From a virus, in IMG/VR virus record IMGVR_UViG_3300010885_020161, positions 1-29,276 of that record: a DNA stretch of 29,276 bases; one strand, given 5' to 3'. The position numbers were made by a program, and so were the translations under genes. The notes beneath the pieces were generated by a model. That model did not search any database. It saw nothing but the letters and a program-made list of their open reading frames with translations, and was not told the origin of the DNA. Positions 3,423 through 10,518 of the stretch are shown piece after piece. The first letter of the stretch is position 1; each line of letters starts with the position of its first letter.

Positions 3423-3665
3423 TCAAAGGTCAAGCCGCCGGGATGTAAAGTCCTCGGGGTAGTGGTGTAGCTGGTTGCACTTCTTGCAGTACAGCAGCTT
3501 GGCTGAGGGTTCGGCATCCTCGCCTATGTCTGACTTAACCCACCGACCATCGCTGTAAGTGGTGTTGCCAGACTCGGTGGATGTTGTCTCGTACAGGTAT
3601 GAGAACTCTGTGTGCCCACAGGTTGCGCAGCAGTTGTTGACTAGGTGCTTTCTACGGTTTTTCAT
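3423..3665 (-). CDS. Small zinc-ribbon-like protein (80 aa)
   Basis: Two Cys pairs, CATC near residues 13-16 and CKKC near residues 59-62, with His residues after the second, make a likely four-Cys zinc ribbon. The ATG at 3665 overlaps the TGA of the DUF2591-like gene as ATGA. Small single zinc-ribbon proteins are common in phage early operons and often bind nucleic acid or polymerase, but no specific role can be read here. Confidence 0.72.
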   Translation of the reverse strand: MKNRRKHLVNNCCATCGHTEFSYLYETTSTESGNTTYSDGRWVKSDIGEDAEPSAKLLYCKKCNQLHHYPEDFTSRRLDL

Positions 3666-3988
3666 GTCAACTCCTCTGGTATCTCTACCTCGTCACCCAG
3701 CTTGCTTGCCACGTAGCAGCGCATGGCTGCAACGAGCGGTGTGAACCCAAAGAACTCCTCGTCTGCTCGGGTAACCGCTGTCCAGTCTTGCCCAGACCAC
3801 TCCAGTTCGATGTGCTCCCGCTCAATGATTGGCCCACCTTGAGACCAGTCGGTTGATGGGGTGTACAGCACCTGCTCATCGTCCGGGTCTTTTGTGAACA
3901 GCGCCCCATCTACAAGGCACTCACCCTCACACTTCGCCACCGCCCAATCAAGGGCAGCGCCTGTCAGTTCGTTCGTTTTGATTTTCAT
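3662..3988 (-). CDS. NinX / DUF2591-like phage protein
   Basis: 108-residue protein with the pattern I associate with the DUF2591 (NinX) family: start MKIKTNELTGAALDWAVAKCEG, a middle STDWSQGGPIIERE segment, and an end TPLVAAMRCYVASKLGDEVE. The length is normal. GGAGAC lies a few bases before the ATG. The family is widespread in phages; its biochemical function is not known. It follows a 32-aa membrane peptide by one base and overlaps the zinc-ribbon gene by four. Confidence 0.85.
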   Translation of the reverse strand: MKIKTNELTGAALDWAVAKCEGECLVDGALFTKDPDDEQVLYTPSTDWSQGGPIIEREHIELEWSGQDWTAVTRADEEFFGFTPLVAAMRCYVASKLGDEVEIPEELT

Positions 3989-4493: not shown

Positions 4494-4556
4494 TAATAAC
4501 AACAATATCAATAATTAAATAAAATATATATATATATCATATACTTACAGCTGTTT
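4494..4556. other. Strongly AT-rich segment, possible unwinding element
   Basis: About 60 bases almost without G or C, with a TATATATATATAT core. Such segments can be origin unwinding elements or bendable promoter DNA. No iterons or DnaA boxes were recognised beside it, so origin function is only a possibility. Confidence 0.3.
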
Positions 4557-4643
4557 TCTCGAAATCTATATTACTGTTTGGGCAGTGTTTACTACGTAAT
4601 ATAGACATTCAACTTAAAAACAACACTAATAAAGGAACGGTGT

Positions 4644-4680
4644 CTTTTATTACAGAATCCAGCAGACTCTGTAATAAAAG
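4644..4680. repeat. Perfect 13-bp inverted repeat
   Basis: CTTTTATTACAGA (4644-4656) and TCTGTAATAAAAG (4668-4680) with an 11-base loop. Its right arm supplies the T-rich tail of the minus-strand terminator at 4674-4697. The 11-mer CTGTAATAAAA recurs upstream of the 171-aa gene at 5263-5273. Confidence 0.7.
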
Positions 4681-4697
4681 GGCTGGCACGGCCAGCC
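4674..4697 (-). terminator. Intrinsic terminator after the 171-aa gene
   Basis: On the minus strand a perfect GGCTGGC/GCCAGCC stem (4697-4691 and 4687-4681) with a three-base loop is followed by CTTTTATT. It lies about 20 bases after the TAA stop of the 171-aa gene, as expected for a Rho-independent terminator. Confidence 0.75.
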
Positions 4698-4716
4698 GAT
4701 TCGAGGTCGGGTTTTA

Positions 4717-5232
4717 TTAAACGAGGGCAGGGGCCTCAGCCTTGCGGGATTCAGCAGCGGCTTTGTTGGTGTCGCTGATACGCTGCGCTAACTGGGCAAC
4801 CACCACACAAGTGTTGTGCATATCCATAGCCAGCTTCAAAGCCGCGTTGGGTGATTGAACGCCCGTTTTCTTGGACGTTACATAGCCGCCAGACTTGGAC
4901 AGCTTGGCGGTCGATACCATATCTGCATACACGTCAGCTTGTGATTCGAATGATGCGCGATTGCTGATGGTTTTGGGTGTACCGCTGCGAATCGCCAGCA
5001 TCTCAGCGAACGGGCGATAGTTGCAGGTAGGCCATGCAGCAGCACGGGCGATTTCGACCAGATTTTGCTGGACAGCAGACATGCGGATTTCAGCGCCCAC
5101 TTTGCCAGTGATGCCTAAGCACGCACCGATAGCGGAGGCACTGGCGTGCCGGACGACTGAGAGTTGGCGGTCGGCTTTTTTCTCGCCAGTTACTTCGACG
5201 ATAACAGGGGCGATTGTGATTTGAGTTGTCAT
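4717..5232 (-). CDS. Hypothetical phage protein (171 aa)
   Basis: The start at 5232 (MTTQITIAPVIVEV) is chosen because AAGG lies ten bases upstream; a 17-codon extension upstream would cross a hairpin and has no ribosome site. The product is soluble, with a beta-like N terminus (about 1-15), a helical middle and an Ala/Glu-rich tail. It is a single-gene unit with its own terminator, and it lies directly downstream of the structured RNA region, so it may be transcribed with that RNA. I recognise no family. It is bracketed by copies of CTGTAATAAAA, which may be regulatory. Confidence 0.7.
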   Translation of the reverse strand: MTTQITIAPVIVEVTGEKKADRQLSVVRHASASAIGACLGITGKVGAEIRMSAVQQNLVEIARAAAWPTCNYRPFAEMLAIRSGTPKTISNRASFESQADVYADMVSTAKLSKSGGYVTSKKTGVQSPNAALKLAMDMHNTCVVVAQLAQRISDTNKAAAESRKAEAPALV

Positions 5233-5253
5233 GATATACCTTAAAAAGTTACA

Positions 5254-5281
5254 GCATGGGCACTGTAATAAAAACCCATGC
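5254..5281 (-). promoter_or_regulatory. Hairpin in the leader of the 171-aa gene
   Basis: GCATGGG (5254-5260) and CCCATGC (5275-5281) pair around a 14-base loop that contains CTGTAATAAAA. It is 20 bases before the start codon, between the structured RNA and the gene, so it could act as a leader regulatory hairpin or a processing site. Confidence 0.4.
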
Positions 5282-5282
5282 A

Positions 5283-5866
5283 ATAACCCCCTGCGCTTGC
5301 TAGGCGCAGGTATCCCTATATGCTCACAACATATGTACGGGATGTTGGGTTATATTTAACGCACTGTGGTGTCAGTCTCACACGTTTATGACTGGGTGAC
5401 CTCATTGGTTTGAAGCCGTTTAAGGTGCACGTTGGCTGACGCCGTACACCCCCTTAACTCATGAAATGAGTCCGTGGATATTTCCCTAAGCTATCCAGTC
5501 TTGCTGGACTCACTACGGCGCAATGCTCTACGCCGCGAATCAGTGCCCGTTATCACGTCGCACCTATTCAATTCGCGCGTTACCATCGTTCCCACACAAC
5601 CCGCGCAGTGACTAAATCAAGGCATTTATTCCAGCATCAAACCCTTGTCCCGTGCGATTACTCACACGGTGCGACAAAGTAGCTGGGTATGCTGTACGCC
5701 TACGCGCCCGCATACATCCCGCATCGTCTTTTCTGCGCGCGTTTCCGGAGAATCCCCGATAACACGCCTACTAACTCACTCTTAAATTTTTAAAGGTCAA
5801 GCTCCCTTCGCAGCATTCCGCCATGTCCTGCGCGATGTTCCCGTGGGAATGATTCGCGCCTGTAGG
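5283..5866 (-). ncRNA. Large structured noncoding RNA candidate (about 580 nt or more)
   Basis: No credible reading frame exists here on either strand, yet complementary segments are dense. Paired segments include 5283-5289/5347-5353, enclosing 5290-5296/5304-5310 and the stacked pair 5312-5316/5339-5343 plus 5318-5322/5330-5334 (a three-way junction). Others are 5424-5431/5443-5450 plus 5420-5423/5454-5457, 5468-5473/5506-5511 enclosing 5475-5480/5492-5497, 5516-5520/5531-5535, 5536-5540/5571-5575, 5643-5654/5665-5679 with a three-base bulge, 5702-5707/5737-5742, and 5830-5835/5854-5859 with an inner stem. Helices 5424/5450 and 5643/5679 contain G-U pairs that work only in the minus-strand transcript, which fixes the strand. 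Size, ornate folding and phage location recall the GOLLD and ROOL RNA classes, but I cannot assign it. The ends are approximate. Confidence 0.62.
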
Positions 5867-5980
5867 CTTTCCACTGCTAGGTTTTTAATGAGCTTTCAAG
5901 GTAGATACGATGACCTACACAATAGGCGCGCTTATGTTTTGGCTTGTTTTTGGCCCGGCCCGATGGGTTGGGCTTGGACG

Positions 5981-6026
5981 GGAGGGGGGTGGGACAGGGC
6001 CAGGCGGGCGCGGGGGGTAGGGGGGG
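5981..6026 (+). other. G-run block with G-quadruplex potential
   Basis: Six runs of three or more G on the plus strand (5984-5989, 5991-5993, 5997-5999, 6006-6008, 6012-6017, 6020-6026) are separated by 1-6 bases. This satisfies the usual G-quadruplex pattern. It lies between the two divergent transcription units and upstream of the terminase genes. Confidence 0.6.
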
Positions 6027-6056
6027 TATGTCACACACGACAACATCAAAATCTAC

Positions 6057-6144
6057 ATGCTATGATTTTTATAGCATCCTAAAATATTCAACGCTATACT
6101 TTTAATAGCAGACCCAAATACTCAGTGCTATGATGTTTATAGCA
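6057..6144. promoter_or_regulatory. Three 19-bp palindromes at exact 34-bp spacing (operator candidates)
   Basis: TGCTAT-N7-ATAGCA at 6058-6076, CGCTAT-N7-ATAGCA at 6092-6110 and TGCTAT-N7-ATAGCA at 6126-6144. Start-to-start distance is 34 both times. The shape (six-base arms, seven-base AT-rich spacer) fits sites for a dimeric helix-turn-helix regulator, and the position fits control of both divergent units. No regulator gene of that type is seen in the window. Confidence 0.65.
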
Positions 6145-6188
6145 TTCTAAAAATTTTAGAAAAAAGTTCAGGCATTTACAATGTCTCC

Positions 6189-6392
6189 ATGAATCTACAA
6201 GAGATCAGTGTGATAGCGGAGAAAGGGCTTCTTTTATGGCGGCTGACGGATGACCCGTTGACGCTGAGTGCCTCGAAAATACTCTTGCGCTGCCGCAAGA
6301 TGCCCCTTAATAAACCAGAGCAGATTTCCCTGGAGATGCTACAAAGGCAGTTGGCAGCATACGAGGTGCTTTACAGTAAGCAACTTATGTAA
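6189..6392 (+). CDS. Small hypothetical protein (67 aa), first late gene
   Basis: First plus-strand gene. No good Shine-Dalgarno is seen; a three-codon mini frame (ATG at 6181) ends at the TGA overlapping this ATG, so starting could depend on re-initiation. The product looks helical (MNLQEISVIAEKGLLLWRL, then a Leu-rich C-terminal helix). Position just before the small terminase is typical for small DNA-binding or packaging accessory proteins, but no motif supports this. Confidence 0.55.
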   Translation: MNLQEISVIAEKGLLLWRLTDDPLTLSASKILLRCRKMPLNKPEQISLEMLQRQLAAYEVLYSKQLM

Positions 6393-6404: not shown

Positions 6405-6836
6405 ATGGACCAAGACAACCCAGCTGTAAGTACCCTCACTGCCATGCCCCCGGCCCTCCTGGCCGACGTAGCGGATGACCCGTCTATACTAAAAGGCATC
6501 GCCACTGTCATGTCGGCGGTTCAGCTAGAGGGTCTGCACCGTGTATTTAATAACCCGTCCACACCGACCGGGCAGAAGATACAAATTTTTGAGGCCACGT
6601 CCAAGATCGCAGAGATAGGCGCTTACGGGAAAGCAACTACTTACGGTCAGGTGGGAGCAGAGAAGTTCAGCCTGTCGATCAACGTCCTCAACCAGGTGGC
6701 ACCAACCCCAGCTGCAACCTCCACCCCAACTAAGCTGGAAACAAGTGCGCCAGTTGTTTTAGATGTGGTCGATGTCGCGGACGTGACGGACGTCACAGCA
6801 AAGGATATTAAAGAGGCAGCTGTCGATGCACGTTGA
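6405..6836 (+). CDS. Small terminase subunit candidate
   Basis: 143-residue protein directly before and overlapping the large terminase by 11 bases. Residues about 20-75 look helical (PSILKGIATVMSAVQLEGL and PTGQKIQIFEATSKIAEIG), consistent with an oligomerising terminase small subunit, and the C-terminal third is Thr/Pro/Val/Asp-rich linker. The small subunit binds the packaging site and loads the large subunit. Sequence identity of small terminases is poor, so the call rests mostly on position, size and helical content. No strong ribosome site before the ATG. Confidence 0.6.
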   Translation: MDQDNPAVSTLTAMPPALLADVADDPSILKGIATVMSAVQLEGLHRVFNNPSTPTGQKIQIFEATSKIAEIGAYGKATTYGQVGAEKFSLSINVLNQVAPTPAATSTPTKLETSAPVVLDVVDVADVTDVTAKDIKEAAVDAR

Positions 6837-8268
6837 TTTCGACCCCCCACTGTCTATCAATGGGTTCTTGACTTCAGACAAGTTCATCTCGCTGATTGTT
6901 GGGCCGGTGGGATCCACCAAAACCAGCGCAGGGATCATGAAGATTGCCTACCACGCCAAGAAGATGGCTCCGTGCAGGGATGGTGTGCGCCGCAGCCGGT
7001 GTGTCTGGGTGAGGAACACGAACCAGATGCTGCACGACACCAGTATCCCGGACTTCGTCAAATGGTTTCCGGACGGTGTAGCTGGTACGTTTGCCAAGGT
7101 GCAGATGAAGTTCATGCTGAAGTTTGACGATGTTGAGTGTGAGGTGCTTTTTCGCGGATTGGAGGATTCCAATGACGTCAGACGATTGCTATCTTTGCAG
7201 ATCAGCTTTGCGGTCCTGGACGAGTTCCGGGAGATCAACCAGCAGATTTTCGAGGCCCTGCAAGGGCGACTGGGCAGATACCCCGATAAATCCCTTGTGC
7301 CGCCTCGTCCTGAGTGGGGGTTGGACGCCGATGGCGTACCTATTGGTGGGTGTGTCAAAGATGATGGCTCAAGCAACCGACACATCTGGGGGATGACCAA
7401 CCCGCCGGACACGGACACGTTCTGGGAGACGCTGCTGACCGAGCCGCCCAAGAATGCCGAGGTGTTTTTTCAGCCCAGCGGTCTCAGCCAGGAAGCGGAC
7501 TGGCTCAAGTACCTGCCGTCGGAGTACTACGCCAACCTGGCAGAGGGTAAGACCCAGCAGTGGATCGACGTTTATATTAATGCCAAGTTTGGCGAGTCGC
7601 TGGCTGGTAAACCGGTGTTCAGCAGCTTCAAGACAGACACCCACGTTGCCAAGAACCCGCTCATCGTCCAGGCGGGACCGCTCATCATTGGGGTGGACGC
7701 CGGGCTGACGCCGACGGCGACGATATGCCAGGTTGACTACCAGGGCAGGCTGCTGGTGCACGACTCGATCACCGGGGATAACATGGGGGCGCTGCGGTTC
7801 TGCCGGGAGATGCTCAAACCACTGTTGACCAATAAGTATGGCCAGAAAGCCAGCATCGTCATCATTGACCCGGCAGCGTTCCAGCGCGCGCAGACCGACG
7901 AGCGCACGGTGGCGGACATTTTCAAGAACGAGGGGTTTGTGGTTAAACCCGCCCTGACCAACACCATCACCGCCAGGTTGGCTGCAGTGGACGGCTACCT
8001 GACCAGGACCGTGGACGGTAAACCGGCGATGTTGATTGATAAAGGGGGATGCGCAAAACTTATCCTGGCGCTGCGCTCGAAGTACCGGTACAAGACCAAT
8101 GCCAAGGGGGACACCGACGAGACGCCGGACAAAACTCACCCTTGGTCGGACCTTGCTGATTCCTTACAGTATGCCTGTCTGCACGCGGACGGTGGGGCAT
8201 CGATCGGTGCGGCACGGCGTGGCACGGCAGTCAAGGTTGTTCAAAAATCTAAATATGTTTACGCGTAA
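6826..8268 (+). CDS. terL: Terminase large subunit (ATPase/nuclease)
   Basis: 480 residues, normal length. N-terminal packaging ATPase: Walker A-like GPVGSTKT at residues 26-33 and Walker B AVLDEF at 129-134. C-terminal RNase H-like nuclease: GVDAG around 289-293 (acidic D291), IIDPA around 346-350 (D348) and HPWSDLADSLQYA around 438-450 (D442/D445). It cuts the concatemer and pumps DNA into the prohead through the portal, with the small subunit encoded just upstream. The last codons and the TAA stop are formed by a copy of the 14-bp palindrome (8257-8270). Confidence 0.95.
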   Translation: MHVDFDPPLSINGFLTSDKFISLIVGPVGSTKTSAGIMKIAYHAKKMAPCRDGVRRSRCVWVRNTNQMLHDTSIPDFVKWFPDGVAGTFAKVQMKFMLKFDDVECEVLFRGLEDSNDVRRLLSLQISFAVLDEFREINQQIFEALQGRLGRYPDKSLVPPRPEWGLDADGVPIGGCVKDDGSSNRHIWGMTNPPDTDTFWETLLTEPPKNAEVFFQPSGLSQEADWLKYLPSEYYANLAEGKTQQWIDVYINAKFGESLAGKPVFSSFKTDTHVAKNPLIVQAGPLIIGVDAGLTPTATICQVDYQGRLLVHDSITGDNMGALRFCREMLKPLLTNKYGQKASIVIIDPAAFQRAQTDERTVADIFKNEGFVVKPALTNTITARLAAVDGYLTRTVDGKPAMLIDKGGCAKLILALRSKYRYKTNAKGDTDETPDKTHPWSDLADSLQYACLHADGGASIGAARRGTAVKVVQKSKYVYA

Positions 8269-8382: not shown

Positions 8383-10518
8383 ATGCAGCCCTTTGGAATG
8401 ACACCCCCTTCTCCCATGGGTCTTCCTGCTCAAGGGCCCGCCCCGCAGCAGCTCAATATTGGCGGTGTGATGAGCATGAAGCCGCTGTCCACCATGAAGG
8501 CCGAGGAGGCGACGGCAGCCGCCATCGACCGGGCCAGGAGCGCGAGCAATGCGCCGGTGGTTCAGGGCCTGGTTCAGTTGCTGCAAAAACACTGGAGCCT
8601 GGCCAAGACTGCCAAGCTGCAAATTGAGCTGGAGATGCTGGAGGCCGTAAGGGCCAAGAATGGGCAGCACCCCGTTGCACTTGAAGCCGAGCTGAAGGCG
8701 CAGGGTGGCTCGCAGATTTACATGATGTTGTTTGCCACCAAGGCCCGGCAGGCCAAAGCGCTGCTCAACGATGTCCTGGTGGGCGCGGGGGTCGAGAAAC
8801 CTTGGACCATATCGCCCAGCCCCAAGCCAGATCTTCCGGAAGAACAAGTAACCCAGATCGTGCAGGGTATCCAGACCTTGGTGCAGCAGGCCGAAAGCGG
8901 GCCAACGCCGATGAGCGTCGAGGAGATTCGTCAGCTGATGCGGGACGCCAAAGACCGGCTGGAAGACCAGGTGATGCAGCAGGCCCGGTTTGAGGCAGGC
9001 AAGTGCGAGGATGCGTTGGAAGACACGATGGTAGAAGGTGGCTTTTTGGAAGCCATGAATGAGTTTTTGGACGACCTGACAGTCTTCAAGACGGCTTTTA
9101 TCAAAGGCCCGATCATCTCTAATAAGCCTAAGCTTACGTGGGTTCCACAAGCCAACGGCACCAGCAAAGCCGTCGTCAATACGGTCAAGTGCCTGGATTG
9201 GAAGCGGGTAGACCCGTTCATGATGTACCCGGCGAGCTACGGCAAAGATGTCCAGGATGCGTACCTGATTGAGCGGCACCGGTTGAGTTCGGCGTCGCTT
9301 AGCGCCATGATTGGGGTTGATGGCTACAACGAAGATGCCATACGCGCTGTCTTGGACCAGTATGGCAAGGGCGGACTGCGGGAGTGGTTGGCAATTGACT
9401 CCGCACGCGCGCCCGCCGAGGGTCGCAACACAGCCCATGTCATGACGGGCGATGACCTGATAGATGCCCTGCAGTATTGGGGCGAAGTCTCTGGCAAGAT
9501 GTTGCGCGAGTGGGGCATGAAGGGCATTACCGATGAGGCCAAGGTCTACCCCGTGGAGTGCTGGTTGATTGGTGAGTACGTCATCAAGGCCATCATCAAC
9601 CCGGACCCGCTGGCCCGCCGCCCGTATTACACGGATGGCTACAGCCGGGTGCCCGGTGCGTTCTGGCACAAAAGCCTTTACGACCTTATTAAAGATGTCT
9701 GCTCCATGTGCAATGCCGCCGCGCGGGCGCTGGCCAACAACCTGGGCATCAGCTCTGGGCCGCAGGTGGGCGTGAACATCGACCGCATCGCCACCGGAGA
9801 AGAAGTCTCTGAGATGTACCCGTGGAAGATCTGGCAATTTACCAATGACCCGATGGGTTCTGGCGCGGCACCGCTGTCGTTTTTTCAGCCGACCTCTAAT
9901 GCAGCCGAGCTGATGGGGGTGTACGACAAGTTCAGCCTGATGGCTGATGAGTACAGTGGCATCCCGCGCTACATGACCGGCACAGAAGGCACGCCCGGTG
10001 CGGGGAGGACGGCATCGGGGCTGTCGATGATGGTGGGCAATGCGTCCAAAGTTATCAAGTCGTTGGTGTCCAGCATTGATCTGCATGTGACCGACAAGGT
10101 GGTGGGGCGGTTGTTTGACCACAAGATGCAATACGACCCGGCGTTCCAGTACCAGGGCGACCTGAACATTGTGGTGCGCGGCGCGTTGAGCCTGCAGGTC
10201 AAGGAAGCGGCCAACCAGGCGCGGATGCAGTTCTTGCAGTCAACCGCCAACCCAGTTGACATGCAGATCACCGGTATTGAAGGCCGGGCGGCGGTGCTGC
10301 GGGAGACCGCCAAGGGGCTGAACATGAACACCGATAGCGTGGTGCCATCGATATCAGCCATGCGTATGAAGCAGATTCAGCAAGCCATGGCGCAGCAACA
10401 AGCCGCGCAGAGCCCGCAAGGCGCGCCGCAAGCGCCAAGCGGACCGCAGTCAGGACAAACGCTAGACAACGGCCAACCCATCACGGACAACTTTAGCCCG
10501 CAACCTATGGCGGCATAA
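8383..10518 (+). CDS. Portal protein
   Basis: 711-residue protein after terL. It has a long helical N-terminal part (residues about 40-220), a core with conserved-looking aromatic and Gly segments (about 270-560, including SEMYPWKIWQFTN and SGIPRYMTGTEG) and a Gln/Ala/Pro-rich tail. The order terminase, portal, scaffold, coat and the size fit the portal of podoviruses and related tailed phages. Twelve copies form the vertex ring through which DNA is packaged and ejected. AGG lies 13 bases before the ATG. A long open frame on the opposite strand is an antisense shadow. Confidence 0.9.
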   Translation: MQPFGMTPPSPMGLPAQGPAPQQLNIGGVMSMKPLSTMKAEEATAAAIDRARSASNAPVVQGLVQLLQKHWSLAKTAKLQIELEMLEAVRAKNGQHPVALEAELKAQGGSQIYMMLFATKARQAKALLNDVLVGAGVEKPWTISPSPKPDLPEEQVTQIVQGIQTLVQQAESGPTPMSVEEIRQLMRDAKDRLEDQVMQQARFEAGKCEDALEDTMVEGGFLEAMNEFLDDLTVFKTAFIKGPIISNKPKLTWVPQANGTSKAVVNTVKCLDWKRVDPFMMYPASYGKDVQDAYLIERHRLSSASLSAMIGVDGYNEDAIRAVLDQYGKGGLREWLAIDSARAPAEGRNTAHVMTGDDLIDALQYWGEVSGKMLREWGMKGITDEAKVYPVECWLIGEYVIKAIINPDPLARRPYYTDGYSRVPGAFWHKSLYDLIKDVCSMCNAAARALANNLGISSGPQVGVNIDRIATGEEVSEMYPWKIWQFTNDPMGSGAAPLSFFQPTSNAAELMGVYDKFSLMADEYSGIPRYMTGTEGTPGAGRTASGLSMMVGNASKVIKSLVSSIDLHVTDKVVGRLFDHKMQYDPAFQYQGDLNIVVRGALSLQVKEAANQARMQFLQSTANPVDMQITGIEGRAAVLRETAKGLNMNTDSVVPSISAMRMKQIQQAMAQQQAAQSPQGAPQAPSGPQSGQTLDNGQPITDNFSPQPMAA

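Follow-up and report, generated by a model that had tools for sequence, protein, structure and literature searches.

The window, which is the whole 29,276-base IMG/VR virus record that was analysed and treated as that of a bacterial virus (phage), was organized into two gene arms. The right arm on the plus strand carried TerL (6826-8268), portal (8383-10518) and structural genes, and the left arm on the minus strand carried an ATPase, a NinX-like protein and small genes; the protein encoded at 3662-3988 was related to P22 NinX (Pfam PF10765). Between the two arms, beside the DNA-packaging genes, sat a structured-RNA region, which the initial annotation had described as a large noncoding RNA of about 580 bases (5283-5866) with no credible gene. 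No ORF of at least 50 aa was found inside 5283-5842, and the longest stop-free run in 5240-5905 was 70 codons. The boundaries proposed at first were too narrow. The unit extended over about 5240-5912 (about 650 bases), with its 5' end predicted near 5912 and its 3' end placed provisionally at the Shine-Dalgarno sequence of the downstream gene. This RNA and a gene for a 171-aa protein formed a unit directed away from TerS/TerL, in the order of promoter core, hairpin, boxA1, hairpin, boxA2, variable body, two-part 3' hairpin, Shine-Dalgarno, 171-aa gene and terminator. The boxA elements, the promoter core and the downstream gene had all been overlooked in the initial annotation.

The folding of the region was compared with that of dinucleotide-shuffled sequence. 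The minus-strand RNA from 5890 to 5260 folded at -244.8 kcal/mol, against -200.2 +/- 6.7 kcal/mol for the shuffles (z -6.6), whereas the plus strand within the same boundaries gave z -3.7. With the boundaries moved to 5905-5241, the z values were -5.9 for the minus strand and -3.2 for the plus strand, and ten 665-nt control folds taken from the coding parts of the window ranged from +0.8 to -2.8. An excess of folding energy over shuffled sequence, which the initial annotation had proposed as a check, was present on the minus strand (z -5.9 to -6.6) and, together with the slot conserved in relatives, pointed to an RNA read from the minus strand over 5240-5912. Most of the helices named from the sequence at first reading were predicted with high probability. 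In the body, the predicted helices at 5687-5715 and 5631-5686 and a bulged 15-bp helix at 5643-5679 (7 + 8 bp, matching the bulged helix drawn there earlier) had pair probabilities of 0.93-0.99, and the helices at 5537-5569, 5515-5536, 5493-5509, 5422-5452 and 5398-5417 had pair probabilities of 0.88-0.97. The helix previously placed at 5420-5457 was recovered as 9 bp at 5422-5452 (P 0.93), and three of its pairs were G-U pairs that exist only in the minus-strand RNA, as had been noticed. For the proposed stem within a stem at 5468-5511, it was the inner stem at 5493-5509 that was well supported (P 0.88). The hairpin CCTGCGC-CTAGCAA-GCGCAGG at 5290-5310 had a P of 0.99. The three-way junction described at 5283-5353 appeared only if the fold was cut at 5260; it was absent from the best fold of the full 3' end, in which 5283-5289 paired in the terminal hairpin at 5246-5289 instead.

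At the 5' end of the unit, a promoter-like core, GCCTATTGTGTAGG, was located at 5914-5927 on the minus strand, with 14/14 bases identical to the related locus L274. Upstream of it lay a C-rich block (5940-6035, G-rich on the plus strand), which gave an nhmmer match with L004 and had a similar counterpart in relatives. At the equivalent place in relatives, the promoter-like block was a C-rich stretch followed by NCCTATNGTGTAG, often in two tandem copies. The hairpin GTAGGTCATCGTATCTACC at 5900-5918 on the minus strand occupied a boxB-like place and was aligned with the GGTGATCGCACC-type hairpins of the relatives; in the window it was a weak 4-bp stem. A boxA motif near the 5' end of the RNA, a feature of rrn-type leaders, was present in the window: boxA1 (GCTCATTAAAAACC, 5880-5893, minus strand) fitted the pattern TC[AT]TTAA[AC]A, was one of only two matches to it on both strands of the window, and stood at the same position as the boxA of L006, L007, L008, L107, L113 and L137. 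A hairpin with CCCACGGGAAC at 5831-5858 on the minus strand separated boxA1 from boxA2 and aligned with CCTACGGGAAC of the relatives (P about 0.55-0.6). The boxA2 block TGACCTTTAAAAATTTAAGAGTG (5777-5799, minus strand) had 21/23 bases identical to L254/L272, a match score reached by 0/200 shuffles; its core was one base off, with CCTTTAAAA in place of TCTTTAAAA. The background frequency of boxA was 3.8e-5 per base, yet most freshwater members carried the motif at the start of the RNA, and all five occurrences of the extended pattern GCTC[AT]TTAA[AC]A in 774 kb fell in the equivalent leader. Many members had tandem promoter cores, a hairpin, a boxA and often a second boxA. Farther upstream, three palindromic repeats like GCTATNATTTTTATAGC with 34 bp spacing lay between the divergent promoters at 6047-6152 and resembled operator sites, and GTGTGTATACACAC-type palindromes were seen near the equivalent position in relatives.

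The RNA ended in a two-part hairpin (5246-5289, minus strand), formed by an outer helix of 7 bp, a 1x1 loop and an inner helix of 8 bp (local z -3.3, 0/200 shuffles), and this arrangement was kept in relatives. Across all clades, the 64 nt immediately upstream of the RBS formed a strong hairpin: z was below -2 for 35 of the 37 RNAs (-3.3 in the window), and most of the 37 had the two-part form, with outer and inner helices separated by a small internal loop. The 171-aa protein that followed (4717-5232, minus strand, ATG at 5232) represented a new family. It was 36% identical to the L008 protein and 35-55% identical to the proteins of other loci of its family; no match was found in Pfam/PHROG, nor by Foldseek with its AlphaFold model (pLDDT 84.5). 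A single-sequence search with the small protein found no relative among viral contigs and phages, a two-sequence profile built from the window and L008 proteins retrieved 13 loci, and a larger profile retrieved 38. At nearly all of the loci with the small gene, a noncoding stretch lay directly upstream, and in most it had a boxA at its start. Beyond the gene, an intrinsic terminator-like hairpin was read from the sequence at 4672-4697 on the minus strand (GGCTGGCC-GTGCCAGCC then CTTTTATT), and the minus-strand folding excess at 4500-4700 was z -7.5. No terminator was found between the RNA and the 171-aa gene in the window, so the two are probably co-transcribed. A perfect 13-bp inverted repeat, CTTTTATTACAGA / TCTGTAATAAAAG, abutted the terminator hairpin at 4644-4680.

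A TerL search in viral contigs yielded 80 loci, and freshwater relatives carried an equivalent unit at the equivalent place. L004 and L006 each carried a noncoding stretch of about 580-600 nt, antiparallel to TerS/TerL, ahead of a gene for a protein of about 170 aa. For the L006 stretch, the RNA strand had z values of -4.4 to -5.1, against -0.3 to -0.8 for the opposite strand; L004, which of the relatives with the slot stands nearest to the window (TerL 75%), reached just -1.9, and no boxA was found in it. Single-sequence z values were modest in many members (+0.2 to -2.8), and L007 and L008 had short leaders of about 140 nt. The order of ATPase and early genes, small gene and RNA on one side and TerS, TerL, portal and MCP running in the opposite direction on the other was found in about 20 viral contigs, and the order of ATPase, small gene, RNA, TerL, portal and MCP was kept though TerL identity dropped to 31%. 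In 40 further TerL relatives, a small antiparallel gene was preceded by at least 400 nt, and 32 of 60 surveyed loci passed an automatic test (promoter core, 250-800-nt gap and gene). A pattern search with conserved motifs turned up further members. All members except the Pseudomonas putida phages described below were uncultured contigs. The placement of the RNA between the two gene arms, noted at the outset, was thus conserved in dozens of relatives, and no conserved protein reading frame was found in the slot. In addition, the 645-aa TerL of L007 (3095-5032) had an intein-like insertion (CFVAGTPVLTPRG...VHNC), GCCAATAAG repeats were dense in a left-arm intergenic stretch of the same locus (780-1330), and the left arm of L006 (6460-7060) contained repeated GCAAAGCGC(T)TTGCA palindromes.

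Compensatory changes were found within each of the four alignable clades. Full-length clade alignments contained eight, six and five sequences (TerL relatives) and twelve sequences (freshwater set), and their column-shuffle alifold z values, which are rough (24-40 shuffles each, MAFFT alignments), were -16.5 to -21 for M1, about -8.6 for F1, about -3.7 for M2 and -13 to -14.6 for G1. Alignment A3 covered the 3' core of 15 distinct RNAs with one pseudoknot and included one misaligned row (L088), which weakens the structure signal. The core consisted of a GGAAAGAC-loop hairpin, a pseudoknotted hairpin and a ACCAAGAACAG-loop hairpin, and its nested helices were recovered by RNAalifold unaided. 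With the pseudoknot, 87.9% of the cells were paired and double-sided changes occurred in 16 of 19 pairs; no measure was reached by any of 500 shuffles, and slid-partner controls were 24-46% paired. The covariance model R1 gave 39 matches at E <= 1 adjoining the gene; 35 scored 32-109 bits, and some were its training sequences. Covariation among homologues, another check raised in the initial annotation, was therefore present in the related RNAs, with none of which the body of the window RNA aligned, and the description of a large structured minus-strand noncoding RNA was supported by the strand-specific folding excess, the conserved slot and these compensatory changes. The RNA strand was stronger than the opposite strand in 4/4 clades. 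This bears on the possibility that the region is a DNA-level element, either an origin or a packaging site, whose palindromes mimic RNA helices. The element adjoins TerS/TerL and the spaced palindromes at 6047-6152, as such a site might, but the reading is disfavoured because the folding is strand-asymmetric with G-U pairs, and the orientation of boxA and promoter also argues against it; we regard it as highly improbable.

How far the window itself belongs to the freshwater family differed along the RNA. A sequence profile of the whole family matched 5930-5778, which is the 5' domain, with an E of 1.5e-3 in a small set. The window had the 5' domain of the wider family (promoter core, hairpin and boxA2), and its RNA lay in the family's slot, which precedes the small gene, runs antiparallel to TerS/TerL and has a two-part terminal hairpin. 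It had in common with the freshwater clade the promoter core, boxA2, the downstream gene and the architecture of the 3' hairpin. The R1-type 3' core (GGAAAGAC hairpin, pseudoknot and ACCAAGAACAG hairpin) was absent from the window, and R1 matched neither the window, L004 nor L008, nor the RNA slot of L006, with the window also searched without filters. The window RNA body aligned with no relative, and the covariation of the family hence excludes it. On sequence comparison, the window has the two ends and the gene of the family, around a body that would have diverged beyond alignment or been replaced. A structured RNA that is unrelated and specific to this lineage could have replaced the family RNA while both conserved ends (5' and 3') stayed, which would explain why the body aligns with no relative, but the length, the ends and the gene all equal those of the family, and L006 (TerL 69%), which has the GGTAAGAATCC and GGAAAGAC of the family, seems intermediate. 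We consider such a substitution unlikely.

The region was then compared with known RNAs. With Rfam 15 at gathering thresholds, nothing matched the window or the loci of 26 relatives; at E <= 10 there was no GOLLD match in 5200-6200, and no meaningful subthreshold match was seen in the region. GOLLD and ROOL were ruled out at Rfam thresholds, since neither covariance model matched the window or the relatives, and no model of phage tmRNA, RNase P or introns matched. No tRNA was found in the window or the tested loci, and GOLLD often adjoins tRNA genes. The initial annotation had left the choice between a new class and a diverged GOLLD or ROOL; the first is favoured, and the lack of Rfam matches and of nearby tRNAs argues against the second. 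Like GOLLD and ROOL, the window RNA is phage-encoded, hundreds of nt long and highly structured; unlike them, it is linked to TerS/TerL and a small gene and has a boxA leader. GOLLD has a conserved 3' part and a variable 5' part, and RNA-only multimers (nanocages) are a trait of the GOLLD/ROOL kind (PMC12286853). The region had no DNA similarity to annotated phages, and no description of boxA-led structured phage RNAs was found in the openly available literature. A search of 300 genomes from a single order yielded no genuine member. The loose pattern GGAAAGACN{40,70}CCAAGAACA matched mostly by chance. Part of the pattern matches in bacterial genomes were inspected by eye, and none of those had the stems. 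No prophage is claimed as a member, since the R1 hits of 23-30 bits in pattern-fetched loci (L225 and L238) are selection artefacts. Known classes of large ornate RNAs number just a handful.

The likeness of boxA to Rho-blocking elements is, by analogy, the best clue to how the RNA would be produced. In rRNA operons, boxB, boxA and boxC follow promoter P2 and another such set lies ahead of 23S; the Nus complex is recruited by boxA, which alone suffices to recruit antitermination factors (PMC10250234). In reporters, boxA prevents the Rho-dependent loss of long untranslated RNA, and Nus/SuhB has been proposed to aid rRNA folding (PMC4807359); CRISPR arrays likewise use boxA (PMC7862264). The unit resembles rRNA leaders and CRISPR boxA regions in its hairpin, boxA, second boxA and long untranslated structured RNA, with tandem promoter cores in many members. 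It differs from the rRNA leader in that the RNA is of a phage and not ribosomal, no boxC was identified, and boxA is missing in some clades. Our preferred explanation, held with moderate confidence, is that these large structured phage RNAs form a family not described before, have an rRNA-like boxA leader and probably act in trans with the co-transcribed protein. Host RNA polymerase would start at the conserved promoter core and pass a hairpin and two boxA elements, from which a boxA-NusB/NusE complex would shield the long untranslated transcript from Rho as in rRNA operons, and may also aid its folding. The transcript would fold, close with the conserved two-part hairpin and run on into the small gene and then the terminator. 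The body would then probably act in trans, likely in an RNA-protein particle that contains the co-transcribed protein, although the binding of that protein by the RNA is conjectural, as is the action in trans. The RNA core was conserved before strongly different protein subfamilies, suggesting a function for the RNA itself. Counting against the preferred explanation were the unalignable window body, L004 with its weak fold and no boxA, the marine clades without canonical boxA, the short L007/L008 leaders, the modest single-sequence z values and the unproven homology of the freshwater and marine proteins.

Two other explanations give the leader a different role. As a cis-acting element, the RNA would be a long 5' UTR that regulates the small gene, its body having no job in trans; in a variant, a nut- or put-like antitermination leader would allow polymerase to read through the terminator (4672-4697) into the left operon. 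The nut and put sites are tens of nt long. The RNA always lies just upstream of the small gene with no terminator between, begins with boxA as lambda nut sites do, and has short boxA-bearing versions of 140 nt in L007/L008, all as a cis leader would; it shares with lambda nut and HK022 put a phage leader with a hairpin and (nut) boxA before an operon. Unlike nut and put, it is about ten times longer and has a terminator after the first gene, and no N-like protein was found. Its 450-650 nt, pseudoknot and many helices exceed known nut/put sites, and the constancy of its core before very different protein subfamilies suggests a greater importance for the RNA than for the regulated gene. Purely cis action is a less probable explanation that still deserves weight. 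Alternatively, two boxA copies on an abundant early RNA could titrate NusB/NusE (S10) or SuhB and thereby lower host rRNA synthesis. Two copies occurred in the window, L006, L107 and L137, and boxA suffices to recruit antitermination factors (PMC10250234), but several members carried one copy and the marine clades none, and a sponge would make the conserved body, pseudoknot and terminal hairpin needless, so that titration seems very unlikely. RNAs of this class have a fixed genomic partner gene, and their predicted expression logic suggests how long untranslated RNAs escape Rho.

Similar arrangements were seen farther afield. Marine-type TerL loci had, at the equivalent place, a C-rich block, a CTATAGTGTA-like core, a gap of 350-500 nt and a gene for a protein of 165-175 aa; canonical boxA was not found in the marine clades. 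Cultured Autographiviridae, 25 P. putida phages among them, carried relatives of the marine gene that were about 30% identical to it. In five of the P. putida phages (vB_PpuP-ErraM, Pori-2, Kompost-1, Vanda and KiKu), a 1.1-1.2-kb stretch with no annotated gene preceded the gene of about 180 aa at the left end, and its last ~500 nt gave an alifold z of -3.7. Like the window RNA, the stretch had a boxA-like CGCTCTTTAGTA and a terminal hairpin, GCAAGGG..TTACTACAGTG..CCCTTGC, and the terminal-hairpin loop of the window, TTATTACAGTGCCC, resembled that of ErraM. The gene homology to the window was not demonstrable, the genome organisation differed and the RNA body was not alignable. Profile comparison of the freshwater with the marine/Autographiviridae small proteins gave no convincing match and did not demonstrate homology, so the P. 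putida/marine link to the window family is tentative. A new class of large phage RNAs spanning freshwater, marine and probably cultured Autographiviridae phages, made by means of host rRNA antitermination and acting in trans as an RNA-protein particle with the small protein transcribed alongside, is a possibility that we advance with caution. The apparent counterparts in P. putida phages, which can be grown on laboratory strains, make a direct functional test feasible. In L291 (623-1858) and its sister P. putida phages L294-L297, about 300 nt of the gene-free 1.1-1.2 kb at the left end were nearly identical, and the surroundings differed between phages.
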